Notes under the pieces: model-generated | Database searches by the model: none | Told to the model about the DNA's origin: nothing | The model's input: the letters and a program-made list of their open reading frames with translations, nothing else | Part shown: piece by piece, positions 7,358-46,421 of the stretch | Layout: each line of letters opens with the position of its first letter | How positions within the stretch are numbered: position 1 is the stretch's first letter | NCBI GenBank assembly: GCA_013152435.1 | Contig: JAADGJ010000106.1 | Span: 75,598-139,597 of the forward strand | Length of the DNA stretch: 64,000 nucleotides | DNA from: Chloroflexota bacterium | GTDB lineage: Bacteria > Chloroflexota > Anaerolineae > DUEN01 | Direction of reading: 5' to 3' | Translations under genes and position numbers: made by a program

Positions 7358-7594
7358 GAGCGTGTCTGAAAATTCACCGGCACGATGTTCTGAGGGATCT
7401 CCCTCAACGACCAGTTCCACAGGGGGGGGTGTGGAGGGGGCCTCCCCTCCACGAAAATCCCACTTTTCCGGCCTGTACCTGCCTCTCTCGGCCCTTTCCG
7501 AAGGCCCCAGGCCGAGGCCAGGCAGGTCGAGGGCAAAAGAAGGGCTTTTTCCGGAGGGGCTCCCCCTAGCATAAGCAACATCTCAGACACACTC
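7358..7594 (+). mobile_element. MITE-like element, type A, copy 1
   Basis: A 237-bp non-coding element with imperfect terminal inverted repeats: left GAGCGTGTCTGA (7358-7369), right TCAGACACACTC. It is flanked by CTAG on the left and TTAG on the right, consistent with a YTAR-type 4-bp target as used by IS5-like transposases. It contains a hairpin (GTGGAGG.../...CCTCCAC around 7429-7451) and closely matches 26808-27011. There is no ORF of note. The right flank TTA supplies the stop codon of the neighbouring M20 peptidase. The rest of the gap (7181-7320) shows nothing further; 7322-7349 resembles half of the palindrome at 53093. Confidence 0.75.
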
Positions 7595-26807: not shown

Positions 26808-27061
26808 AGCGCGTCTGAAAATTTACCGGCAAGATGTCTGAGGGGTCTCCCTCAACGACCAGCTCCACAGGGGGAAGTGTGGAGGGGAGGTCCCCTCCAC
26901 GAAAATCCCACTTTTCCGGCCTGTACCTGCCTCTCTCGGCCCTTCCCGAAGGACTCAGGCCGAGGCCAGGCAGGTCGAAGGCAGAAGCAACGGCATTTCT
27001 CAGACACACTCTTAGGGTCTTAGTGCCTTGGTGGTTCCTATCGCACTTTTCAGACACACGC
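26808..27061 (+). mobile_element. Composite MITE: type A copy 2 fused to the right end of type B
   Basis: Flanked by TCAG on both sides (26804-26807 and 27062-27065). The first 204 bp (26808-27011) match the type A element at 7358-7594. After an internal TTAG, 27012-27061 match the last 50 bp of the type B element (24092-24141) with about six differences. The hairpin GTGGAGGGG/CCCCTCCAC is conserved. The outer duplication suggests the composite moved as one unit. Confidence 0.7.
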
Positions 27062-30572: not shown

Positions 30573-31835
30573 ATGGAAGTGAACATCGTAGAATTGGAAA
30601 CTCGGACACTGGACGAACTGCAAGAGATGGCCCGGGAGATGGGGATCACCGGCTACACTCGTCTGAAGAAGTATGATCTCATCATGCGCCTGCTGCGGGC
30701 CAACGCGGAACAGCAAGGATACATCTTCGGCGGCGGAGTATTGGAGATCGTCTCCGACGGCATCGGCTTCCTGCGCTCGGACCATCTCCTGCCCGGCCCG
30801 GAGGATGTATACGTCTCGCAATCGCAGATCCGCCGCTTTGGCCTGCGCACGGGGGACTTCGTGGTGGGGCAGGTGCGTCCCCCGAAGGAGACGGAGAAAT
30901 ACTACGGCCTGCTGAAGGTCGAGGCGGTCAACGGGCTCGATCCGGAGGTCTCCAAGCAACGCCCGCAATTCGAGCGGCTGACGCCCATCTTCCCCAATCA
31001 GCAGCTCAAGCTGGAGACCGAATCCAACATCCTGGCGACCCGCCTGATCGATCTGATCGCGCCGATCGGCCGGGGACAGCGCGGCCTCATCGTATCACCG
31101 CCCAAGGCAGGGAAGACCACCATCCTCAAGCGCATCGCCAACGGCATCACCACGAACTACAACGATATCCACCTCATGGTGGTCCTCATCGGCGAGCGTC
31201 CGGAGGAGGTCACGGACATGGATCGCTCGGTACAGGCCGAGGTGGTCAGCTCCACCTTCGACGAGCCGGTCCAGAATCACGTCCGGGTGGCGGAGATGGC
31301 TCTGGAGCGCGCCAAGCGCCTGGTGGAGATCAAGCGAGACGTCGTCATCCTGCTGGACTCGATCACCCGGCTGGCGCGAGCGTACAACCTGGTGGAGCCG
31401 CCCAGCGGCCGCACGCTCTCCGGCGGGATCGATCCGGCGGCGCTCTATCCGCCGAAGCGATTCTTCGGCGCCGCGCGCAACATCGAGGAGGGCGGCAGCC
31501 TGACCATCATCGCCACCTGTCTGGTGGACACCGGTAGCCGCATGGACGACGTCATCTACGAGGAGTTCAAGGGCACCGGCAACATGGAGCTCCACCTGAG
31601 CCGTCGCCTGGCGGAGCGCCGCATCTTCCCGGCCATCGACATCGAGCGGTCCGGCACACGCCGTGAGGAGCTCCTCCTGGATCAGGAGACGCTCAGCCGG
31701 GTGTGGACAATGCGTCGCATGCTGGACGCCCTGCGTCAGGCAGGCGAGGAGCCGATCATCCCCGTGCTGGAGCGCATGGCGCGCACCCGCAACAATCGCG
31801 AGTTCCTGGCCACACTGAACCGTGATCTCTCATGA
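30573..31835 (+). CDS. rho: Transcription termination factor Rho
   Basis: Hexameric RNA-dependent ATPase that ends transcription. The 420 residues contain the Rho N domain ([23 protein letters not shown]), the primary RNA-binding cold-shock domain ([22 protein letters not shown]), Walker A (SPPKAGKTT), Walker B ([17 protein letters not shown]) and the C-terminal RNA loops ([20 protein letters not shown]). The length matches the family, with no insertion in the N-terminal region. GAGAGGT lies just before ATG 30573. It has its own promoter and a ~345-nt leader. Intrinsic terminators downstream belong to the next unit. Confidence 0.98.
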
Positions 31836-31897
31836 GCCCACCGGCCGCCCGCCCTCGCGCCGTCATCCAGCCGACCGGCAGAGGCCATCCATCTGAG

Positions 31898-31926
31898 TTG
31901 ACATCCCATCTCCACGGTGCTATACT
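31898..31926 (+). promoter_or_regulatory. Near-consensus promoter of the cobalamin riboswitch operon
   Basis: Perfect TTGACA (31898-31903), a 17-bp spacer and TATACT (31921-31926). The start site near 31933 leads straight into the riboswitch. Confidence 0.88.
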
Positions 31927-31947
31927 CATGTCAACCGAATAACCCAC

Positions 31948-32078
31948 GGCGGCAGAGGTACCCGACGCCCGGATGCTAGGGTCTAAGGGGGGAAGCCGGT
32001 GAGAGTCCGGCGCTGTCCCGCAACTGTAATCCTGCGCCCACCGCGGCAGCAGGAGAGCCAGGTCGCCCGCCTCTGCTG
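31948..32078 (+). ncRNA. Cobalamin (AdoCbl) riboswitch aptamer
   Basis: The conserved core is clear: GGAAGCCGGTGAGAGTCC, then CTGTCCCGCAACTGTAA (31991-32029), and the B12 box AGCCAGGTCGCCCGCC at 32056-32071. The closing stem P1 pairs GCAGAGG (31952-31958) with CCTCTGC (32070-32076). Cobalamin binding should switch the downstream operon off. The platform is probably transcriptional, because a strong terminator begins 63 nt further on. This is the best evidence for what the downstream transporter carries. Confidence 0.96.
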
Positions 32079-32140
32079 AAGTTCTCGGCCCACCTTCGAG
32101 CGAAAGGGGGGCGGGAGAGCGACAGAAGTCGCATTTCCAA

Positions 32141-32168
32141 CCCCTTGTCGGCTCCGGCAAGGGGTTTG
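32141..32168 (+). terminator. Riboswitch expression-platform terminator
   Basis: CCCCTTG (32141-32147) pairs with CAAGGGG (32158-32164), followed by TTTGTA. It lies between the aptamer and the first gene, as expected for cobalamin-controlled termination. The matching antiterminator could not be settled by eye. Confidence 0.75.
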
Positions 32169-32180
32169 TAACGCTATGCG

Positions 32181-32214
32181 AGCTCCTCCGCCACGAAGGG
32201 TGGAGGAGCTTTTC
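32181..32214 (+). terminator. Second terminator in the riboswitch leader
   Basis: AGCTCCTCC (32181-32189) pairs with GGAGGAGCT (32202-32210), followed by TTTCT. Two terminators in series would tighten repression by cobalamin. Confidence 0.75.
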
Positions 32215-32271
32215 TCATGTTGAGGGCGCCTCCGAGAGGCCCTGTCGCTCCCGCTACGGGGAGGCCCAGAG

Positions 32272-32380
32272 GAGCGAAGCCCCCCGGAGAGGGCTTCCCG
32301 CCGCCGTCGACCTGCCGGGCCTCGGCCAGGTCCCCGTGGAAAGGCCGAGAATGACAGGTGCGGGCTGGAAAAGAGGGGAT
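32272..32380 (-). repeat. Diverged, inverted copy of the type A MITE
   Basis: Reading the minus strand, words match type A elements: CCTTTCCA..., GGCCGAGGCC and AGGTCGAC follow in the same order as in 7480-7560. It fills the space between the second terminator and the first gene of the cobalamin operon. The terminal repeats are no longer recognisable. Confidence 0.45.
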
Positions 32381-32400
32381 GGCGCCGCGAGGAGACGCGA

Positions 32401-33459
32401 GTGGAAAAGGACGGCGTAACGCTAACGAGCGAGAATCGTATGGTGAAGCGATCATTTTGGTGGGTGGTCCTTGTCCTCGCCGCGCTGGGATGGAGCCTTC
32501 CAGTCAGCTCAGGCGAGGCGCCTCCGACCACGGCCTCCGTCCGACAGGCCGCGGTCGCCAGGGCGATCACCTGGCTGCACACCCAACAGCAGGCGGATGG
32601 CTCCTTTGGCGTGCTGACCAGCACCGCCGACGTCGTGTACGGGATCGCCCTGGCCGGCGAGGACCCGTCCGATCCCGCCTGGACGCCGGCGGGGCGCAGC
32701 CTGCTGGACGCGCTGAGGGCGCTCTCCCAGACACAGGCCACCAACGCCGGGCGCATAGGCAAAGCGCTCCGGGCGCTGGGCGCTGCCGGACAAACCACGA
32801 CCGATCCCACCGTGTCGGCGCTGGTGACCAAATTGGACGCCCTTTATGACCCGTCCACCGGCCTGTATAACCCAACGCAGGGATTCTACCACGCACTGGC
32901 CGTGGAGGGGCTGGCACGGGTCGGGGCCTCTGTCCCGGCCGCGGCGATCCAGGCGCTGATCAGCCGCCAGAAGCCCGATGGTGGCTGGGGGTGGCAATTC
33001 GGCAAGCCCGAATCCGCCAGCGACGTGGATACCACCGGCCAGGTGATGCGGGCGTTGCGAGCCGCGGGCGTCCCGGCCGATCACCCGGCGATCACCAAAG
33101 CCGTAGCCTACCTGGCCGCCCGCCAACGGGAGGACGGCGGCTGGGCGTGGGGCGCGATCGCGACCACCAGCGACGGGAATGCCACGGCGATGGCCCTGGC
33201 CGGGCTGATCGCGGCCGATGTGAACCCGCTCGCCCCACCCTTTGCCAACACTCCTCCGACCGCCTTGACCTTCCTTTTGAGATTGCAGCAGCCCTCGGGG
33301 GCCTTCGCATATCTGCCCGACCAGCCCCAGGACGACTTGCTGGCCACCCTGGACATCATCCCGGCCCTAAGCCCGGGCTGGCCCGGCGATCGCTCCCTTC
33401 CCATCCGGGTACTTCTGCCCGACATCATCCGGAACCCATCCATTTCATCAGGAGGATGA
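32401..33459 (+). CDS. Secreted alpha/alpha-barrel repeat protein (prenyltransferase/squalene-oxidase-type repeats), putative cobalamin-binding alpha domain
   Basis: 352 residues with an N-terminal signal peptide (hydrophobic core at 19-34). The mature part consists of QW-like repeats: AITWLHTQQQADGSFG, ALISRQKPDGGWGW, AVAYLAARQREDGGWAWG and FLLRLQQPSGAFAY. This is the alpha6/alpha6 fold shared by terpene cyclases and the N-terminal domain of intrinsic factor and transcobalamin. The terpene cyclase catalytic DxDD is not seen. As the first gene behind the cobalamin riboswitch, and next to two DUF4430 genes, it is best read as the alpha half of a split cobalamin binder. GAGGAG lies 7 nt before GTG 32401. 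Confidence 0.75.
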   Translation: MEKDGVTLTSENRMVKRSFWWVVLVLAALGWSLPVSSGEAPPTTASVRQAAVARAITWLHTQQQADGSFGVLTSTADVVYGIALAGEDPSDPAWTPAGRSLLDALRALSQTQATNAGRIGKALRALGAAGQTTTDPTVSALVTKLDALYDPSTGLYNPTQGFYHALAVEGLARVGASVPAAAIQALISRQKPDGGWGWQFGKPESASDVDTTGQVMRALRAAGVPADHPAITKAVAYLAARQREDGGWAWGAIATTSDGNATAMALAGLIAADVNPLAPPFANTPPTALTFLLRLQQPSGAFAYLPDQPQDDLLATLDIIPALSPGWPGDRSLPIRVLLPDIIRNPSISSGG

Positions 33460-33462
33460 GAG

Positions 33463-34044
33463 ATGCGCACACTGCCTCGTCATCGGATCTACCTCGTAGC
33501 CGCCCTCGTGCTGCTGTTGCTGGCGGTCAGCAGCCTGGCCGTCGGCGCGGCCGACGGGACCAAACGCGTCGGCCTCGTCATCCGATACAGCGACGGCTCC
33601 GTCCACACCGAGGTCGTCACGGTTCCAGCCGACGCGACCACCTTCGAAGTACTGCAAGCGGCCAACATCAATCTGGTCTGGTCGGACTCCGGCTTCGGCC
33701 CCGCCGTCTGCAAGATCGGGAACGACGGATGCCCCGCCGACAACTGCTTCTGCGACCCGGCGCACTTCTGGGGATACTGGCATCTGAACGCCGCCGGCAC
33801 GGACTGGGAGAGCTCTACCGTCGGCGTGGCGGGATACACGCCCAACGACGGCGATGTGGAAGGGTTCGCCTGGACGGGGTTCGATGCGAATTACAACCCG
33901 GTGGTCAAGCCGCCCGTGTACACCTTCGCGGAGCTGCTGGCCATGGCCCAGGCGCCGGTCCAGATACCGGAGCCGACGACGCTGTTGCTGGTGGGAGGCG
34001 GCCTGGCCGGCCTGGTCGGATATGCGCGCCGCCGCCGGAGCTGA
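33463..34044 (+). CDS. DUF4430 (transcobalamin C-terminal-like) protein with PEP-CTERM anchor
   Basis: 193 residues. A signal peptide (~1-30) is followed by a DUF4430 domain: RVGLVIRYSDGSVHTEVVTV, FEVLQAANI, then a Cys cluster (AVCKIGNDGC...NCFC) and FWGYWHLN, VGVAGYTPNDGDVEG. This matches the beta domain of intrinsic factor/transcobalamin in pattern (YWxL...GVxxYxPxDG). The C-terminus is a PEP-CTERM sorting signal: PEPTT, a hydrophobic helix, then RRRR, so an exosortase would process it. GGAGG lies 7 nt before ATG 33463, and the ATG is 3 nt after the preceding stop. Confidence 0.85.
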   Translation: MRTLPRHRIYLVAALVLLLLAVSSLAVGAADGTKRVGLVIRYSDGSVHTEVVTVPADATTFEVLQAANINLVWSDSGFGPAVCKIGNDGCPADNCFCDPAHFWGYWHLNAAGTDWESSTVGVAGYTPNDGDVEGFAWTGFDANYNPVVKPPVYTFAELLAMAQAPVQIPEPTTLLLVGGGLAGLVGYARRRRS

Positions 34045-34063
34045 GGGATACAGGAGCGTGACC

Positions 34064-35341
34064 ATGAACCGATCAAGAACCTCCCTTCACCCAACGATCC
34101 GGATCGGCGCGGTCGCGCTCCTGATCCTTTTCGTCTCCCTGGTCGCCGTCGGGCCGGCCGCCACCCAGGGGGCTCCCCACCGGGTGGGCCTGGTTGTGCA
34201 ATTCCCCGACCGCACGGTCACCACTTGCGTGACCTTTGATGAGCCTGAGATCTCCGGATATGAGGTGCTGGCCCGCTCCGGCCTCAACTTCAACGCCGAC
34301 CTCACGTCGAACATGGGGGCGGCCATCTGCAGCATCGAAGACGTGGGCTGCACATATCCCGTACAGGATTGCTTCTGCCAGTGTCAGGGGGGAGATTGCC
34401 TCTACTGGTCCTACTGGCACCTACGGGACGGGGAGTGGGAGTACTCCCAGCTTGGCGCGGGCAACTACACCGTGCGGGATGGCGACGTGGAGGGATGGCG
34501 CTGGGGACAGGGAGAGATCAACCTCTCGGCCCAACCGCCGCCCGTGTATACCTTCGACGAGCTTTGCGCCGCGCCCACACCGACGGACACCCCCGTCCCG
34601 GTGCAGATCACGTTCACCGCGGACGACCAGGAGATCGACGAGGGCCAATGCACATGGATCCGATGGCAAGTCCAGGGAGCCCAGCAGGTCTTCCTGGATG
34701 GCGAAGTGGTGAGCCCTTCGGGAAACCGCCAGGTCTGCCCGGCGGTCAGCACCAGCTATCGTTTGCAGATCCAACACGCGACGGGGGAGCTGGAGCGCCT
34801 GGTCAGCGTGAAGGTGCGGCCGTCGGCCACGCAGCCGACGCCCACCTTCACGACCGCCTTCCAGGGGACCTCTCCCCTGCCAACGCCCACACCCACCACG
34901 GCGCTTCACACCACTTCGCCCCTGCCGACGCCAACCGTCGCGCCCACGCCAACGCCTCCCCCCACCCCCACATTCACGCCGACGCCCACGGAGGAGGCAA
35001 GCCCGACCTCCGTAGCGGAGTCCAGCCCTACGCCAGCCGTGCCCACGCCAACGCCTCTCCCGGCGGAGAGCGAAGAGGTGGAGCCCCAGGCGACTCCCAC
35101 GACCAAGACCATCACGACGATGCCGCTGTCGGCCGGCGGGGCGGAGGCGAGCCCCACCGCGCCCCCGGAGGAGGCGCAACCCACCCGCGGCGACACGACG
35201 GCCGGACAGCGACCGGAGGCCGTGAGCTCGCGGGTCACCCGGTCGGAGGTCCTCCGGCTGCTGGCCTTCGGGCTGGTGGGGATCTTCAGCGCGGCCGCGT
35301 TGGGAGCCGTCAGCCTGTTCCTGCGACGCCGCGAGGGATAA
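34064..35341 (+). CDS. DUF4430 surface protein with Thr-Pro stalk and C-terminal membrane anchor
   Basis: 425 residues. Signal peptide (~1-36), then a DUF4430 domain (~38-160) with the same Cys pattern as the preceding protein (AAICSIEDVGC...DCFCQC) and YWSYWHLRDGEWEYSQLGAGNY. Next come an immunoglobulin-like segment (ITFTADDQEIDEGQCTWIRW), a ~130-residue Thr/Pro/Ser stalk, and a final membrane helix ending in RRREG. It should hold a cobalamin-capture domain away from the membrane. ATG 34064 has AGGAG 7 nt upstream. It is 20 nt from its paralogue and 26 nt from ecfT. Confidence 0.85.
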   Translation: MNRSRTSLHPTIRIGAVALLILFVSLVAVGPAATQGAPHRVGLVVQFPDRTVTTCVTFDEPEISGYEVLARSGLNFNADLTSNMGAAICSIEDVGCTYPVQDCFCQCQGGDCLYWSYWHLRDGEWEYSQLGAGNYTVRDGDVEGWRWGQGEINLSAQPPPVYTFDELCAAPTPTDTPVPVQITFTADDQEIDEGQCTWIRWQVQGAQQVFLDGEVVSPSGNRQVCPAVSTSYRLQIQHATGELERLVSVKVRPSATQPTPTFTTAFQGTSPLPTPTPTTALHTTSPLPTPTVAPTPTPPPTPTFTPTPTEEASPTSVAESSPTPAVPTPTPLPAESEEVEPQATPTTKTITTMPLSAGGAEASPTAPPEEAQPTRGDTTAGQRPEAVSSRVTRSEVLRLLAFGLVGIFSAAALGAVSLFLRRREG

Positions 35342-35367
35342 AGCCCCCGACAGGAGGGAACCCGATC

Positions 35368-36501
35368 TTGCCTGAACCCACCCGACGAACGCCTCGCTTC
35401 CACCCTTACACCTGGCTGGCCTGGCTGGCCGCAACCGCCGCGCCCGCGCTGCTCACGCGCAACCCGATCTACCTCAGCGTGCTGCTGCTGGCCGTCGGGT
35501 TGACCTACCGCACGCTGGCCCGGGAGCATCCGGAGCATCGCGGGTGGGAGTTCCTTATCCGGCTGGCGGTCCTCCTGTGGCTGTTCACGACCCTGTTCAA
35601 CGCGCTGACCGTCCACGCCGGCGCCACCGTGATCTTCCGGCTGCCCACCCGCTGGCCCGTCATCGGCGGGCCGATCACCCTGGAAGCCGCGGCATACGGC
35701 CTGGCCAGTGGGCTCAGCCTGCTGACGATCCTGGTCACGTTCATCACGTTCCACATGGCGTTGGACCCCGGACGCCTGTTACGCCTGGTGCCCGCCGCCC
35801 TCTTCCAGGCCGGCGTGGTCACCGCCATCGCCATCACCTTTGTGCCACAGATGATCCGCTCGGTCCAGGAGATCAAGGAGGCGCAGGAGATACGCGGGCA
35901 CCGCTTCCGCGGTGTGCGCGACCTGCTCCCCCTGTTCATCCCGCTGCTCACCACCGCACTGGAGCGCGCCATCCAATTGGCCGAATCCATGGAAGCGCGC
36001 GGCTTTGGCGCCTCCACGCGCCGTCGAGCGAATCGCACAGCCATCGGGGCGCTCACCCTCACGCTCCTGATTCTGCTGGCGTTTGGGCTCTTCGCATACG
36101 GGTACTGGCGCGCGTACCGATTCGAGTCCGGGCTTCTCATCTCCATCGCGCTGGGCGGACTGATCGGCATCTTCTGGGCGATCGGGCGCCAGGCGCCGCG
36201 CACGCGCTACCGCCGATGGCTCTGGCGCCCATGGGACACGCTGGTGACCACGGCCAGCCTGCTGGCCGCATCGGCGATCCTGGCCACGCGCCTCATCGAC
36301 CACGCGGCGCTGATCTACTACCCCTATCCACCCTTCGGCCTGCAGCCCGACATCCGACCCTGGCTGTGCGCTCTGATGCTCGTGCCCGCGCTTCCCGCGG
36401 CGGTTATCGCATACGGCCGGCACAAGGCGGCCCGGCACGAGCGGTCCGGCGACACCCGCCGCCATCCGCTGCGAGATGTGGCCGATGGCGTGGCCGGGTA
36501 G
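35368..36501 (+). CDS. ecfT: ECF transporter transmembrane (T) component
   Basis: About 377 residues. Hydrophobic helices at both ends flank a cytoplasmic coupling region with the paired motifs AQEIRGHRF and SMEARGFGA; these x-R-G sequences contact the EcfA ATPases. It is longer than the usual ~260 residues because of an added C-terminal membrane segment (from about residue 290). The start is TTG 35368, supported by AGGAGGG 9 nt upstream and by the spacing to the preceding stop. In an ECF complex it couples ATP hydrolysis to toppling of the S component. Confidence 0.9.
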   Translation: MPEPTRRTPRFHPYTWLAWLAATAAPALLTRNPIYLSVLLLAVGLTYRTLAREHPEHRGWEFLIRLAVLLWLFTTLFNALTVHAGATVIFRLPTRWPVIGGPITLEAAAYGLASGLSLLTILVTFITFHMALDPGRLLRLVPAALFQAGVVTAIAITFVPQMIRSVQEIKEAQEIRGHRFRGVRDLLPLFIPLLTTALERAIQLAESMEARGFGASTRRRANRTAIGALTLTLLILLAFGLFAYGYWRAYRFESGLLISIALGGLIGIFWAIGRQAPRTRYRRWLWRPWDTLVTTASLLAASAILATRLIDHAALIYYPYPPFGLQPDIRPWLCALMLVPALPAAVIAYGRHKAARHERSGDTRRHPLRDVADGVAG

Positions 36502-36531
36502 CGCTTTCCACCACCGAGGCAGAGGAGCCCA

Positions 36532-38184
36532 ATGATCACCTTCGACGAGGTCAGCTACCAATACCCTGACACCTCGCGGCCGGTGTTGCAGAACCTGTCC
36601 CTCCGCATCGAGGAGGGGGAGTTCCTCCTGGTCATCGGCCCGTCCGGCGCGGGGAAGTCCACTTTCCTGCGCTGCATCAACGGCCTGGTGCCCCACTTCT
36701 ACGGTGGCCGGTTCAGCGGGCGGATACGCGTCGCCGAGCGGGACCCAGTGGCCGTGGGGCCCCACGGCATGAGCGATCTGGTGGGATTCGTTTTTCAGGA
36801 CCCCGAGGCCCAGTTCGTGGTGGACACGGTGGAGGACGAGCTGGCCTTCGCCCCGGAGAACTTCGCCCTGCCGCAGAACCTCATGCGCAAGCGGGTGGAG
36901 GAGGTGCTGGACCAGCTGGACATCGCGCGGCTCCGATACCGTCGCGTGCATTCGCTCTCCGGCGGCGAGAGACAACGGGTGGCCATCGCCGCCGTGTTAA
37001 CGTTGCAGCCGCGCATCCTGGTGCTGGACGAGCCCACCTCCCAGCTCGACCCGCAGGCGGCCGAGGAGGTGCTGATCGCCGTGCGCCAGCTCAACGAGGA
37101 TCTGGGGCTCACGGTGATCCTATCCGAGCATCGGCTGGAGCGCGTGGTACAGTACGCCGATCGCGTGCTGTACCTTCCCGGCCAGGGCAGCCCTCCCATC
37201 CTGGGCGACCCGGAGGAGGTGTTGGCCCAGGTCGATCTGACCCCGCCGCTGGTCACGTTGGGAAAGGCCCTGGGCTGGCAGCCGCTGCCGCTCACCATCA
37301 AGGAGGGACGGCGCTTCGCCCGCCGCCTGGGCGCCCTGGGAGAGCACGCATCGCGGGCTGTCCCGCCTTCCGAGCGTAAGGACAGCCCCATCGTGGAGGC
37401 CGGAGGCGTCTGGCACACCTACGACACAACGCCCGCGCTGGCCGATGTCTCCCTGGATGTACGCCCGGGCGAGTTCGTCGCCGTGATGGGGCGAAACGGG
37501 TCCGGGAAGACGACGCTGCTCAAACACCTCGTAGGGCTGCTGAAGCCCCACCGAGGGCGGGTCGTGGTGGCCGGACTGGATACTCGCTACGTGGATACTC
37601 ACGAATTGGCCAAGCGGGTGGGATACGTGCCGCAGCATCCGGACGCGCTGCTCTTCGCCGACACGGTCGCACAAGAGCTGGCCTTCACCCGGCGCAGCCA
37701 GGGAATGCCACAGGCCCCCGACGAAGATCTCCGGCTGTTGGAGCAACTGGGCCTGGGGAGCCTGGCGGACCGGTACCCCCGCGATCTGAGCAGCGGCGAG
37801 CGACAGCGGGTGGCATTGGCCGCCGTCCTGGTCGGAGATCCCTACGTCGTCCTCCTGGATGAGCCCACGCGAGGGCTGGACTACCCGCAAAAGGAGCGCC
37901 TTGTGGAGATCCTTCAGGCGCTGCGTGCGATGGGCAAGGCCATCATCATGGCCACCCACGATGTAGAGCTGGTCGCACGGTGCGCCGACCGGGTCGTCCT
38001 GATGGCTGAGGGGCAGATCATCGTGGACGGGCCGGCCCGGGAGGTGATGTCGGACTCGCTGGTATTCGCCTCCCAGGTCAACAAGCTGTTCCGGGATCCA
38101 CGACTGGTCACGGTAGACGATGTGCTACAGGCGATCGAGCGGCGCCGGGCGGCCGAGCCAATCCCCCCGGAGATGGGACGATGA
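36532..38184 (+). CDS. Fused ECF ATPase (EcfA-EcfA', two ABC domains)
   Basis: 550 residues carrying two complete ABC ATPase domains. Domain 1 has Walker A GPSGAGKST, signature LSGGERQRVAIAA and Walker B ILVLDEPTSQLD. Domain 2 has Walker A GRNGSGKTT, signature LSSGERQRVALAA and Walker B VVLLDEPTRGLD. The typical EcfA Q-loop FQDPEAQFV is present in domain 1 and PQHPDALLF in domain 2. The fusion replaces the usual EcfA1/EcfA2 pair. Its stop overlaps the S-component start (ATGA). Confidence 0.95.
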   Translation: MITFDEVSYQYPDTSRPVLQNLSLRIEEGEFLLVIGPSGAGKSTFLRCINGLVPHFYGGRFSGRIRVAERDPVAVGPHGMSDLVGFVFQDPEAQFVVDTVEDELAFAPENFALPQNLMRKRVEEVLDQLDIARLRYRRVHSLSGGERQRVAIAAVLTLQPRILVLDEPTSQLDPQAAEEVLIAVRQLNEDLGLTVILSEHRLERVVQYADRVLYLPGQGSPPILGDPEEVLAQVDLTPPLVTLGKALGWQPLPLTIKEGRRFARRLGALGEHASRAVPPSERKDSPIVEAGGVWHTYDTTPALADVSLDVRPGEFVAVMGRNGSGKTTLLKHLVGLLKPHRGRVVVAGLDTRYVDTHELAKRVGYVPQHPDALLFADTVAQELAFTRRSQGMPQAPDEDLRLLEQLGLGSLADRYPRDLSSGERQRVALAAVLVGDPYVVLLDEPTRGLDYPQKERLVEILQALRAMGKAIIMATHDVELVARCADRVVLMAEGQIIVDGPAREVMSDSLVFASQVNKLFRDPRLVTVDDVLQAIERRRAAEPIPPEMGR

Positions 38185-39161
38185 GCCGAACCCGCCGGGA
38201 GCGCTGGCTGAACGCCGGCATCCTCGTCGCCGCCACCCTGGTCGGCGTGATCGCCTTCCTGTCCCCCTTCTTTGCGACGCCGGAGCAGACCGCCGCGCAG
38301 TCGCCCATGGCCCACGCCCAGGATGCCCCCTTCGTGCTGGGCGTCCTGGTCATCATCTGCCTGGGCGCCGTGCTGGCCAACCTGACGGCTGGCGGCATGA
38401 GCGCCAAGACCACGGCCGTGCTGGGCGTGTTGACAGCCGTGAGCGCGGCCCTGCGGGCGTTGCCAGGGCCGCAGGGCTTCTCCGCCATCTTCTTCCTCCC
38501 CATCCTGGCCGGATACACCTACGGAGCGACGTTCGGATTCCTCCTGGGGACGTTGGCGCTCCTGACCTCGGCGCTCCTGGGCGGCGGCGTGGGGCCCTGG
38601 CTGCCCTATCAGATGTTCGCCTCCGGGTGGATGGGGCTTCTCAGCGCGGGGCTCCCCCGCCGATGGCTGCGCTCACGGCCTCGTCTGGAGGTCCTCATCC
38701 TGGCCATGTGGGGCTTCCTGCTGGGGCTGATCTTCGGGGCCATCATGAACCTGTGGTTCTGGCCGTTCCTCTTTCAGCCGGGCGAATCGGCGATCTACTG
38801 GCAGCCGGGCATGACGCTGGCCGAGACGGCGCGACGCTACGCCCTCTTCTATCTGGTCACCTCTCTGGGATGGGACCTGTGGCGAGCGATAGGCAACGCC
38901 GTCCTCATCCTGGTGTTCGGACGCCCCATCCTGCGGCTCCTGCGGCGCTTCCAGCGTCGCTTCCACTTCGACGTCGTCCCCACCATCGTCGGAGATCAGA
39001 CGAGCGCGAGCCCGCCCGCAGCCGATCACTCCCTCCAGGCCCGCAGCCTATCCTACGGGCCACCCAACCATGGAAGGCCACATCTCCCGTATCCGCTCCA
39101 GATCGCCATCCGCCGCTCCCAGGGCCACCATGAGCGCGATGCGGGCCTTTGGCGCGTTTAG
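38181..39161 (+). CDS. ECF transporter substrate-binding (S) component, predicted cobalamin-specific
   Basis: 326 residues with about seven membrane helices. The region LPILAGYTYGATFGFLLGTL followed by GPWLPYQMFASGWMGLLSAG resembles cobalamin/CbrT-like S components. The N-terminus lacks a cleavable signal. Specificity is inferred from the riboswitch and the transcobalamin-like neighbours, not from binding residues. It overlaps ecfA by 4 nt (translational coupling). The last ~45 residues are low in conservation and run antisense over the end of the asparaginase gene, so the natural stop may have been lost. Confidence 0.8.
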   Translation: MSRTRRERWLNAGILVAATLVGVIAFLSPFFATPEQTAAQSPMAHAQDAPFVLGVLVIICLGAVLANLTAGGMSAKTTAVLGVLTAVSAALRALPGPQGFSAIFFLPILAGYTYGATFGFLLGTLALLTSALLGGGVGPWLPYQMFASGWMGLLSAGLPRRWLRSRPRLEVLILAMWGFLLGLIFGAIMNLWFWPFLFQPGESAIYWQPGMTLAETARRYALFYLVTSLGWDLWRAIGNAVLILVFGRPILRLLRRFQRRFHFDVVPTIVGDQTSASPPAADHSLQARSLSYGPPNHGRPHLPYPLQIAIRRSQGHHERDAGLWRV

Positions 39162-40052
39162 CTCCCCGGCGAAGAGGCACCCCCGTCGCCTGAGATCGCT
39201 GTAACACCCAGGGAAGCCGTACGGATCCCCCACGCGGCCCTGCGGCACTCGCGTCGCGATGACGACCGGCACACCCTGCCGCACGGCGTTCGTGATGGGC
39301 TCCAGCCAGGAGACGGGCACGCGGCCGCCCCCCATGGCCGCCAGCACGATCCCCTTTACCCCCCGTCCGATCAGATACTCGAACAGCTCCGGGGAGACGC
39401 CCGCCGCCAGCATCAGCAGGGCCACATCAGGCTCCAACCGCGGGCAGGACACCGGCCTCGGGGTGACCCGCTGAGCGATGTGAATCCCCACCGCGTCGAC
39501 CACGCCCAGAGGGCCGAACTGTCCCGAGCGGAAGGTGGACAGCGCCTGCGTGTGCGTCTTCGTCACGTGACGGGCGGCGTGAATCGTATCGTCCAACACG
39601 ACCAGGGTGCCCAGGCCGCGCGCCTCCGCCGAGGCGGCCACGCGAATGGCCGCGGCCAGATTCGCGGGGCCGTCGTAGGACAACTGCGAGGCGTGGCGCA
39701 TGGCGCCGGTGAACACCACCGGCTTGGGGCTGTCCAGCGTCAGGTCACAAAGCGTGGCGGTCTCCTCCAGCGTGTCCGTGCCATGCGTCACCACCACGCC
39801 GTCCACATCGGGACGAGCCAGCAGCCCGGCTACAACCTCCCGGGCAGCCCACATGGTCTCTGGGGTCATGTGTGGGCCCGGGAGATTGCAGACGGCCGTG
39901 CTCTCCAACGTCACCGGCAGATCAGGCAGGAAGCGGATCAGATCCTCCGCCTCTAACGCGGGGACGCCGCCCCCCGCCTGGGGATCATAGCGCATGGCGA
40001 TGGTGCCACCGGTGGTGACGATCGCCACATGAGGGGATTTCGTTCCTGTCAT
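39048..40052 (-). CDS. L-asparaginase
   Basis: Hydrolyses L-asparagine to aspartate and ammonia. In 334 residues both Thr active-site signatures are present: TTGGTIAMRYD near the N-terminus and VVVTHGTDTLEETA near residue 90, plus the downstream Lys region GAMRHASQLSYDG. No signal peptide is seen, so it is probably cytosolic. ATG 40052 was chosen because AGGAG lies 7 nt upstream; the region above it has no such site. The 3' end overlaps the S-component gene by 114 bp on the opposite strand. Confidence 0.93.
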   Translation of the reverse strand: MTGTKSPHVAIVTTGGTIAMRYDPQAGGGVPALEAEDLIRFLPDLPVTLESTAVCNLPGPHMTPETMWAAREVVAGLLARPDVDGVVVTHGTDTLEETATLCDLTLDSPKPVVFTGAMRHASQLSYDGPANLAAAIRVAASAEARGLGTLVVLDDTIHAARHVTKTHTQALSTFRSGQFGPLGVVDAVGIHIAQRVTPRPVSCPRLEPDVALLMLAAGVSPELFEYLIGRGVKGIVLAAMGGGRVPVSWLEPITNAVRQGVPVVIATRVPQGRVGDPYGFPGCYSDLRRRGCLFAGELNAPKARIALMVALGAADGDLERIREMWPSMVGWPVG

Positions 40053-40195
40053 CGTATGCTCCTGGTCACGGTATGAAATGATCACGATGGGGGAGCTTGA
40101 GCAACCCTGCACGTAACCGTAGACGATCGTTTTTCCACATCGGCACGATTACGCGCGATGCTACCGGGGCTTTCTGCGTTCATCGAAAGGTCTGT

Positions 40196-43850: not shown

Positions 43851-46421
43851 TCAGTTGGTGATGGTCAATGTCACAGGCTCCGTCGCATACAGCCAATATC
43901 CCCAGCCAGGCGACATGGTGTCCAGCGTGCTCTGCCCGGGGTTGGAGGGCTGATAGGACAGCCACTGATCGGTAGTGCCATCGTACGTGTATACCGCGGT
44001 GTACTTTCCAGCGATCGACGCCAGGGTGTCGGTGATCGGCCGGCTGGTCAGGGAAGGATAGCCGATCAGATTCCAGCCCGAACACAACGGGATCGAAGTG
44101 CTGGCCGGCTCGGCGCCACTGGCCTGCAACACGGCATCGGCCCCCGTGATCCGGATCCAGATCCCCCGGGTACGATCCAGCGAGGAGAGATTGGAGACAT
44201 AGCTCGGCAGCCCCACGCCATAGCGTTGCCAGCTCTCCGTGCAACCATCGTACGTGACGACCACGTCATACTTGCCCGCCAGGGAGCTCAAGGCGGTCGT
44301 CACCGGCGTGCCCGGCTCGGCCAGCGGGAGCGAGATGAGCTGCCAGCCCAGGGGCAGCGACCGCTGCATGCTCAACGGGGTCGCCGTGGGCGTCACGGTG
44401 GGCGTGGGCGTAAGCGTCGGCGTGGCCGTGGGAGTAGGGGTCGCGGTCGATGTCGGCGTGGCCGTGGGGGTCACCGTGGGCGTCGGGGTGAGGGTGGGCG
44501 TAGGCGAGGGCGTCGCGGTGGCCGTGGGCGTGGGTGTAGGCGTCGCCGTCGGCTCAGGCGGGGCAGCCATGGCGTACTGGCCAAACGTGGTGATCCCGGT
44601 CGCCGTGATCTTATTGTAGATGGTATCCAGCGTTTGGGATCCCACCAATTGCCACGCGGACGAAGCATCCGGCCGCCAATACAGCTGCAATCCCGATTCC
44701 ACCAACCCCGCGATCTCGCCGTTGGCGTAGTAGAAGATAAGCGTGGCCACGAAGTCCGTCTTGGTCGTGGTGATCTCCCACCAGACGGCCGCGGCGTTGG
44801 CGAGGTCAGCCGGCACCTCGCGATGTTTGACCACGGTCACATCGCCGGCCGTCCCGGACGAGAAGTCGATCTGTACATTGGTGCTCCCGAAGTCCGTACG
44901 GGGAGTATCGCCCCCGGGGATGGTCTGCGTCTGGCTGGCCACGGTCGTCCCATAGGAGGAGAGCAACAGATACGCCTGGCCGGCGCCATCAAAGGACTCA
45001 TGATCCTCATCCGCGCCCACCAGGAAGTCATCGAAGCTATCGCCGTCCACGTCGCCCACCATGGCCAGGGAGGCGCCCGCCCGACTCCCCACGCGCTCGC
45101 CCCAGAAGGAGGCGTCCGCGTTGGCCAGGCTGACGTTCGCCGCCCATCCGGAGGTCTTGCCCAGGATCAGGTACGCCTGCCCGGCCCCCTCGTCGGCCTC
45201 CCAGTTCTCCGGCGCGCCGATGAGGAAGTCATCCAGCCCGTCGCCGTTCACATCGCCGCCGCCGGCCAGCGCGGACCCGGCCGTGTCCCAGAAATCCTCG
45301 CCGACGTAGCTACCAGCGGCCACCGTGGCCAGGCTTTGATTGACCCCCCAGCCGGTGGCTTTGCCCAGGATGAGATAGATCCGGCCGGCGCCCTCAGGCA
45401 CCGTCACCCCATCCCCATAGCCGGTGGCGCCGATCAGAAGGTCATCGAACCCATCGCCGTTCACATCCCCCGCGCCGGCCACAGGAAGGCCGGCCGCCTC
45501 ATCCTGGGTCGCGCCGAGGAACGACGCGTCCGCATTGGCCAGGCTGACGTTCCGCTCCCAACCGCTCGTCTTGCCCAGGATCAGATACACCTTCCCCGCG
45601 CCGCTGAAGGCATCGCTGTTCTTCCAGGCGCCGATGAGGAAGTCATCCAACCCATCGCCATTCACGTCGCCCACACCGGCCACGGACTGCCCAGCCAGAT
45701 CCCCCGCGTTCTCGCCGATGAAGGACGCGTCGGCGTTGGCCAAGCTGGTATCCATCGCCCACCCGGAGGTCTTGCCCAGGATCAGATATACCTTTCCAGC
45801 CGATCCACCATAGGTCGGTGCGGCGATCAGGAAGTCGGCAAGTCCATCTCCGTTCACGTCCCCGGCCGGGGCGACGTCGAACCCGGCGCTATCCCCGAGA
45901 TTCTCCCCCCAGAACGACGCGTCCGCCGTCGACAGGCTCACATCTCGAGCCCAGCCACTGGCGCGACCGAAGATGAGGTACGCCTGTCCGGCCCCAGCCC
46001 CGGCCTCGCCATTGCTGGGAGCGCCGATCAGGAAATCGTCAAACCCGTCGCCATTCACGTCGCCCACGCCGGCCACGCTGGAGCCAGCCGCGTCGCTGGC
46101 CTGCTCGCCCAGGAATGAGGCGTCTGCGGCGGACAGGGAGAGGTCCTGCACCCACCCGGCGTCCTTGCCCAGGAACAGGTACACCTGCCCCGCGTCCGCG
46201 GCGCTCTCATCGTTCCCCGGCGCGGCGATCAGGAAGTCCGCGTAGCCATCTCCGTTCACATCCCCCGCCGCGGAGACGTCCGTCGCGGCGGCGTCGTTCA
46301 GGGCCTCGCCCCAGAAGGAGGCGCTGGCGCCTCCCAACGGCGTGTCGGGGGTATAATCGGCGATCACCATCGTCACGAATAAGCCAAGCAGCACAATGGC
46401 TGCGATCAGTTTCCGTATCAT
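43851..46421 (-). CDS. Secreted seven-repeat FG-GAP (integrin-alpha-like beta-propeller) protein
   Basis: 856 residues. A signal peptide (~1-21) is followed by seven FG-GAP repeats of about 65-70 residues (30-500). Each has a calcium-binding loop DVNGDG[FLY]xDFLIGAP; the seventh is DVDGDSFDD. Seven repeats would close one beta-propeller. A beta domain follows, then a ~70-residue Thr-Pro stalk and two copies of a C-terminal module (LGWQLISLPL / CSGWNLIGYP with YTYDG). No membrane anchor is visible at the end. It is probably an extracellular adhesion or binding protein. Its promoter is at 46593-46621. Confidence 0.88.
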   Translation of the reverse strand: MIRKLIAAIVLLGLFVTMVIADYTPDTPLGGASASFWGEALNDAAATDVSAAGDVNGDGYADFLIAAPGNDESAADAGQVYLFLGKDAGWVQDLSLSAADASFLGEQASDAAGSSVAGVGDVNGDGFDDFLIGAPSNGEAGAGAGQAYLIFGRASGWARDVSLSTADASFWGENLGDSAGFDVAPAGDVNGDGLADFLIAAPTYGGSAGKVYLILGKTSGWAMDTSLANADASFIGENAGDLAGQSVAGVGDVNGDGLDDFLIGAWKNSDAFSGAGKVYLILGKTSGWERNVSLANADASFLGATQDEAAGLPVAGAGDVNGDGFDDLLIGATGYGDGVTVPEGAGRIYLILGKATGWGVNQSLATVAAGSYVGEDFWDTAGSALAGGGDVNGDGLDDFLIGAPENWEADEGAGQAYLILGKTSGWAANVSLANADASFWGERVGSRAGASLAMVGDVDGDSFDDFLVGADEDHESFDGAGQAYLLLSSYGTTVASQTQTIPGGDTPRTDFGSTNVQIDFSSGTAGDVTVVKHREVPADLANAAAVWWEITTTKTDFVATLIFYYANGEIAGLVESGLQLYWRPDASSAWQLVGSQTLDTIYNKITATGITTFGQYAMAAPPEPTATPTPTPTATATPSPTPTLTPTPTVTPTATPTSTATPTPTATPTLTPTPTVTPTATPLSMQRSLPLGWQLISLPLAEPGTPVTTALSSLAGKYDVVVTYDGCTESWQRYGVGLPSYVSNLSSLDRTRGIWIRITGADAVLQASGAEPASTSIPLCSGWNLIGYPSLTSRPITDTLASIAGKYTAVYTYDGTTDQWLSYQPSNPGQSTLDTMSPGWGYWLYATEPVTLTITN

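Follow-up and report, generated by a model that had tools for sequence, protein, structure and literature searches.

A cobalamin riboswitch-led operon with predicted transcobalamin-type capture proteins and a CbrT-like ECF transporter in Chloroflexota

Which proteins could collect vitamin B12 (cobalamin) at the surface of a bacterium that is probably unable to make the corrin ring, and how could the vitamin then be brought into the cell? The question is raised by an operon on contig JAADGJ010000106.1 of an Anaerolineae bacterium (Chloroflexota; genome of 4.97 Mb, 96% complete), within an analysed stretch of 64 kb that is hereafter called the window. Behind a cobalamin riboswitch, six plus-strand genes stand close together, with intergenic distances between -4 and about 30 bp, and encode in order a toroid protein, two proteins with a beta domain (betaA and betaB), EcfT, a fused EcfA-A' and the S component of an energy-coupling factor (ECF) transporter (Table 1). 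A preliminary description of the window had given this order as barrel, two beta proteins, EcfT, fused EcfA-A and S on one strand, and all six genes have been confirmed. From the sequence and from structure models, the locus is read here as a cobalamin-repressed operon for scavenging B12, in which capture proteins would work with a CbrT-like ECF pump beside BtuFCD; the probability of this reading is put at roughly 0.78.

Proposed capture proteins and the transcobalamin fold

The kinship of the beta proteins is visible by fold. In the AlphaFold model of the betaB domain (mean predicted local distance difference test, pLDDT, 94.4), the best Foldseek matches in the PDB are the isolated human transcobalamin beta domain in its apo (5no0) and cyanocobalamin-bound (5np4) forms, which rank 1 and 3 with TM-scores of 0.70-0.75 by target length and a probability of 1.00. 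Ranks 1-17 are all transcobalamin, intrinsic factor or the R. gnavus structure 3u7z, and the next match has a probability of 0.82. Strands 43-46 and 54-58 of the model form an extra beta-hairpin directly after helix 32-37, and a hairpin at this place is the defining feature of the transcobalamin-like SLBB clade (PMC1796856). BetaA and betaB are paralogues with 38% identity. The preliminary description had called both DUF4430 proteins and had proposed a Foldseek comparison with transcobalamin and intrinsic factor; the comparison came out in favour of the transcobalamin beta fold, but the family label does not hold, as Pfam DUF4430 (PF14478, cut-off 23.8 bits) matches none of the window proteins, none of 50 aligned members of the beta family and none of 60 relatives. 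The models thus support a transcobalamin-type beta domain in these proteins, recognizable by fold and not through Pfam DUF4430. In Chloroflexota relatives with small genomes, probably Dehalococcoidia, the place of beta between the toroid gene and EcfT is taken by proteins above the DUF4430 cut-off (L211, L212), while a single chain of L209 combines toroid and DUF4430. In the alignment of the beta family, cysteines (a CFCQC-type motif and others) are strongly conserved in most of the separate beta proteins and fewer in some that are fused; they might form disulfides or provide a cobalt ligand.

Conservation was surveyed in 60 loci from the class of the host, chosen by beta match (the class loci). 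The toroid is present in 56 of them, and all five components fall within the fetched stretch in 37. Half of the class loci have two to three beta domains, and 20 have tandem toroids, two or three per locus and often in one secreted chain (L042, L044, L050, L092 and others). A toroid like that of squalene-hopene cyclases would not by itself imply cobalamin; the link is supplied by fusions with beta. Beta and toroid share one chain in 11 of the 60 loci, mostly in the order beta-toroid. The order toroid-beta, as in transcobalamin, is found in L081, L113 and L206-L208 (two toroids followed by beta), and a Nocardioidaceae protein (L167) has one toroid and then one beta. A cobalamin riboswitch lies directly upstream of the fusions L167 and L206-L208. 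The fusion alignment was built from fused and toroid rows only, the mixed version having put beta-only rows on the toroid. When the second toroid and the beta domain of L206 were modelled together (pLDDT 88.9, predicted TM-score 0.79), both domains were covered by the alignments with the first 15 PDB matches, all of them transcobalamin, haptocorrin or intrinsic factor. The claim of the preliminary description that the halves of transcobalamin occur here as separate surface proteins has gained support from the toroid, the beta fold and the fusions in homologous riboswitch operons; a joint cobalamin pocket between the halves is a possibility that the fused model does not bear out, and we return below to the placement of its two domains.

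As read from sequence, the capture proteins carry hydrophobic N-terminal signals, and the C-termini of betaA and betaB are PEP-CTERM and transmembrane, respectively. The PEP-CTERM signal of betaA is probably used, because an exosortase is encoded in the host genome.

Riboswitch control, transporter and recurrence of the locus

The aptamer upstream of the toroid gene is the sole Rfam match in the window and scores far above the gathering threshold of RF00174 (31.5 bits), in agreement with the riboswitch named in the preliminary description. The promoter just before it matches 11 of 12 consensus positions and is the only such site that a consensus scan found within 31800-39300, where shuffled sequence predicts 0.5. 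Two terminators had also been described. Two strong hairpins do follow the aptamer, in a region with z = -5.3, but both have short U-tracts and a consensus terminator scan accepted neither; that they serve as terminators is plausible. Between these hairpins and the toroid start lies one copy (32303-32377) of an intergenic interspersed repeat of about 75 bp, which is also present at 7459-7534 and 26907-26982 of the window and at L215 1215-1291. The copies are 79% identical to one another, and further copies occur elsewhere in the host genome.

The association with the riboswitch recurs. A same-strand cobalamin riboswitch lies immediately upstream in 52 of the 60 class loci, within about 340 nt in all but one, and four of the eight loci that have none lie at contig ends. 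These 52 are not due to chance, because the 60 genomes together hold only 95 cobalamin riboswitch matches. By the preliminary description, its reading would fall if homologous loci usually sat under other regulators, which is not what the class loci show. The riboswitch is also found upstream of several loci in Actinobacteria and other Chloroflexota. A search of genome contigs with the profile of the S family returned at least 593 stretches; 80 loci were kept, including Kribbella, Amycolatopsis, Janibacter, Nocardioides, Streptomyces and others, and toroid, beta and EcfT occur together in 36 of the 80. Of the actinobacterial counterparts, the toroids match the NCBIfam family SCO2321 and the beta proteins SCO2322, both of them uncharacterised. 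The window proteins match the same models clearly and below the curated cut-offs, the toroid with 74 bits against SCO2321 (NF053823, cut-off 300 bits) and betaB with 45 bits against SCO2322 (NF040672, cut-off 85 bits).

The transporter also points to cobalamin. Compared with the PDB, the profile of the S family (32 members) has one significant match, chain 6fnp_A (E 3.2e-8), although the PDB contains other S components as well. The 6FNP structure is ECF-CbrT, whose import of cobalamin and cobinamide has been demonstrated (PMC5997447). The S component is thus supported as CbrT-like, a homologue of the cobalamin S component, and the suggestion of an ECF importer for cobalamin made in the preliminary description gains from this match to CbrT alone. 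The transporter has a dedicated module, because EcfT and the fused EcfA-A' are encoded in the operon.

B12 supply of the host and competing explanations

The host genome has 11 B12-binding domains above cut-off and no match to CbiC, which the same search found in 7 of 14 control genomes. Synthesis of the corrin ring is therefore probably beyond the host, which would have to import B12 and is probably a scavenger. Five proteins with B12-binding domains, with open frames of about 490-556 aa, are encoded within 8 kb at G000:C114:27640-35607 and are possibly B12-dependent radical S-adenosylmethionine (SAM) enzymes. A second operon behind a cobalamin riboswitch (L003 1501-1649 / L095, G000:C19) encodes BtuF (PF01497, E 3e-44) together with genes that were named from their sequence as BtuC- and BtuD-type and CobO-, CobB- and CobD-like; a radical-SAM-like gene also lies inside it. 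The preliminary description had taken the capture operon as a replacement of BtuFCD, which is not supported, because this BtuF-BtuC-BtuD operon is present in the same genome; the capture operon is therefore read as an addition to BtuFCD. Another cobalamin riboswitch of the host precedes a CobT-like gene. Behind a further, strong one (L002 1501-1652, G000:C41:29507; 69.9 bits), the stretch examined contains no evident B12 gene; the open reading frame (ORF) of a protein of about 180 aa comes next, and then an oppositely oriented glycosidase-like gene.

In the scavenging operon proposed here, low cellular B12 would let the riboswitch permit expression, as is expected from its class. The toroid and the two anchored beta proteins would be exported, as suggested by signal peptides and by the PEP-CTERM or transmembrane anchor. 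Toroid and beta may then hold cobalamin between them. By homology, the ligand would be passed on to the CbrT-like S component, whose cargo the EcfT/EcfA-A' module of the operon itself would drive across the membrane. The capture operon would operate alongside BtuFCD and not in its place.

Several results weigh against this interpretation. The nearest relatives of the toroid family by sequence profile in the PDB are squalene-hopene cyclases (E 3.5e-43), and its profile finds no transcobalamin chain there. The profile of the beta family finds no PDB chain at all, transcobalamin included, so that a comparison of folds was needed; a profile comparison of the beta family with three DUF4430 proteins is weak as well (probability 59). 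The ligand-free model of L206 deviates from the animal carriers by a root-mean-square distance of about 22 Å overall, with TM-scores of 0.41-0.48: taken singly, each domain of the model matches the carriers, but beta sits differently on the toroid. This difference may mean little, because the alpha and beta domains of human transcobalamin meet over a small interface and need cobalamin to associate; expressed separately, they assemble only when cobalamin is present, and beta alone binds it (PMC5599065). In addition, 24 of the 80 kept S loci have no toroid or beta in the stretch examined, some of them on short contigs, and the S component may work without such neighbours.

Some of these observations suit a different division of labour, in which the operon imports B12 but the beta proteins alone do the capturing, while the toroid has another role at the surface, perhaps to organise the complex or to bind a B12 carrier of foreign origin. 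The unaided binding of cobalamin by isolated transcobalamin beta (PMC5599065), the two to three beta domains encoded by half of the class loci, the tandem toroids of unclear purpose in a third of them (20 of 60) and the absence of the closed transcobalamin form in the fused model all favour it. The near-constant toroid (56 of 60 loci), the recurrent fusions in both orders and the ranking of transcobalamin, haptocorrin and intrinsic factor first for the whole fused chain speak against it, and it is considered unlikely. Slightly less likely again is a precursor or analogue as the substrate (cobinamide, another cobamide or a lower-ligand base), with the riboswitch merely reporting the end product. 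Both transcobalamin beta (PMC5599065) and CbrT (PMC5997447) also take cobinamide, and the BtuFCD-CobO-CobB-CobD operon and the CobT-like gene behind cobalamin riboswitches would provide for salvage; yet CbrT, the sole characterised relative of the S component that was found, takes cobalamin with high affinity (PMC5997447), and the genome has at least 11 B12-binding domains.

An importer of cobalt, nickel or another vitamin with a folate-type S component, for which regulation by B12 would be secondary, is very improbable. EcfT does carry the label 'cobalt transport protein' (PF02361), and 19 of the 32 S homologues weakly match the FolT family TIGR04518, although the S component of the window does not. 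Against this stand the significant PDB match of the S family to CbrT alone, the transcobalamin-type beta domain and the lack of any CbiM or CbiN match among the operon proteins. Within the favoured B12-scavenging reading, a bolder version can be offered tentatively, and is itself doubtful: that toroid and beta are obligately separate surface subunits that assemble only around cobalamin, that the S component receives the vitamin directly from their ternary complex, which would make them a receptor of two exchangeable parts for an ECF transporter, and that this modular state is ancestral to the fused bacterial and the animal carriers.

Relation to known systems and features of the locus

Burroughs, Balaji, Iyer and Aravind defined the transcobalamin-like SLBB clade in 2007 (PMC1796856). 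They reported bacterial fusions of the beta domain with alpha/alpha toroids in both orders and operons with CbiO/CbiQ, and the hosts they name (low-GC Gram-positives, planctomycetes and some euryarchaea) usually lack key enzymes of B12 synthesis. Their proposal was that the proteins scavenge B12 and that animal transcobalamin came from bacteria. The present operon shares with that clade the secreted or anchored beta-grasp domain with a hairpin insert, the toroid partner, the CbiO/CbiQ operon and the gap in B12 synthesis. It differs in that toroid and beta are separate genes and the beta family lies outside Pfam DUF4430, and it adds the cobalamin riboswitch, the CbrT-like S component and PEP-CTERM on one beta protein. 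The terms 'Chloroflex', 'Streptomyces' and 'riboswitch' are all absent from the main text of PMC1796856. The preliminary description had suspected that the exact arrangement was undescribed. Its outline was proposed in that paper, but no description of the split, riboswitch-controlled version was found in the open-access literature, and in Chloroflexota and Actinobacteria this version appears not to have been described before.

Among transporters, ECF-CbrT of Lactobacillus delbrueckii (PMC5997447) has the same S family, EcfT and EcfA pair; CbrT belongs to group II, in which several S components draw on one common ECF module, whereas the module of the window is dedicated and in an operon with capture proteins. 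In lactobacilli, an annotation reads 'Additional lipoprotein component of putative cobalamin ECF transporter', and a DUF4430 gene adjoins the gene of a B12-dependent reductase (PMC9963975); the tie to cobalamin is the same, but no toroid partner is mentioned and the sequence family is another. Animal transcobalamin, intrinsic factor and haptocorrin have both domain folds in a single soluble chain, toroid then beta, that holds cobalamin between the two domains and is taken up by receptors, whereas here the domains are split, anchored and coupled to an ECF transporter. BtuG and BtuH of Bacteroides have different folds and serve an outer-membrane, TonB-dependent route. They have in common with the present system the capture of B12 at the surface to feed an importer (PMC6143338, PMC8941943).

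The 2007 prediction thereby becomes a concrete and testable system in hundreds of loci of Chloroflexota and Actinobacteria, including relatives of Streptomyces that are cultivable and open to manipulation. A function is suggested for SCO2321 and SCO2322, whose model names give none, and an ECF transporter would be given a surface capture step. No need for such a step is known in classical ECF systems. The series of split, beta-toroid and toroid-beta forms also bears on the origin of intrinsic factor and transcobalamin.

Table 1. Coordinates of the operon and its leader in the window
Feature	Position	Strand	Evidence
Sigma-70-type promoter, TTGACA-17 nt-TATACT	31898-31926	+	11/12 consensus positions, just 5' of aptamer
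Cobalamin riboswitch aptamer, RF00174	31939-32088	+	Covariance model 70.6 bits, E 2e-15, full model length
Strong hairpin 1, possible expression-platform/terminator stem	32139-32166	+	12-bp stem in minimum free energy (MFE) fold, weak U-tract
Strong hairpin 2, candidate intrinsic terminator	32180-32211	+	13-bp stem in MFE fold, short U-run after
Secreted alpha/alpha-toroid	32401-33459	+	SQHop_cyclase_C/N repeats E 2e-13; SCO2321 family below cut-off
betaA, secreted, transcobalamin-type beta domain and C-terminal PEP-CTERM	33463-34044	+	PF07589 E 2e-6
betaB, secreted; transcobalamin-type beta domain at about 34163-34591, with Pro/Thr-rich stalk and C-terminal transmembrane anchor	34064-35341	+	AlphaFold/Foldseek
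EcfT, CbiQ-type transmembrane coupling protein, TTG start	35368-36501	+	PF02361 E 1.5e-10
Fused EcfA-EcfA' ATPase, two ATP-binding cassette (ABC) domains	36532-38184	+	TIGR04520 and TIGR04521 above cut-off; two ABC_tran stretches
ECF S component, CbrT-like	38181-39161	+	PF12822 (ECF_trnsprt) E 8e-11

The start of the toroid gene is most likely the GTG at 32401, which has AGGAG upstream, and not the alternative ATG at 32440. At the other end of the operon, the final 60 or so residues of the S component fall outside the conserved family and overlap a convergent asparaginase-family gene (39048-40112, minus strand), which covers the 3' end of the S-component ORF. Farther downstream, the minus strand of the window encodes a secreted protein of 856 aa with FG-GAP/integrin-like repeats and a Pro/Thr-rich stretch (43851-46421).

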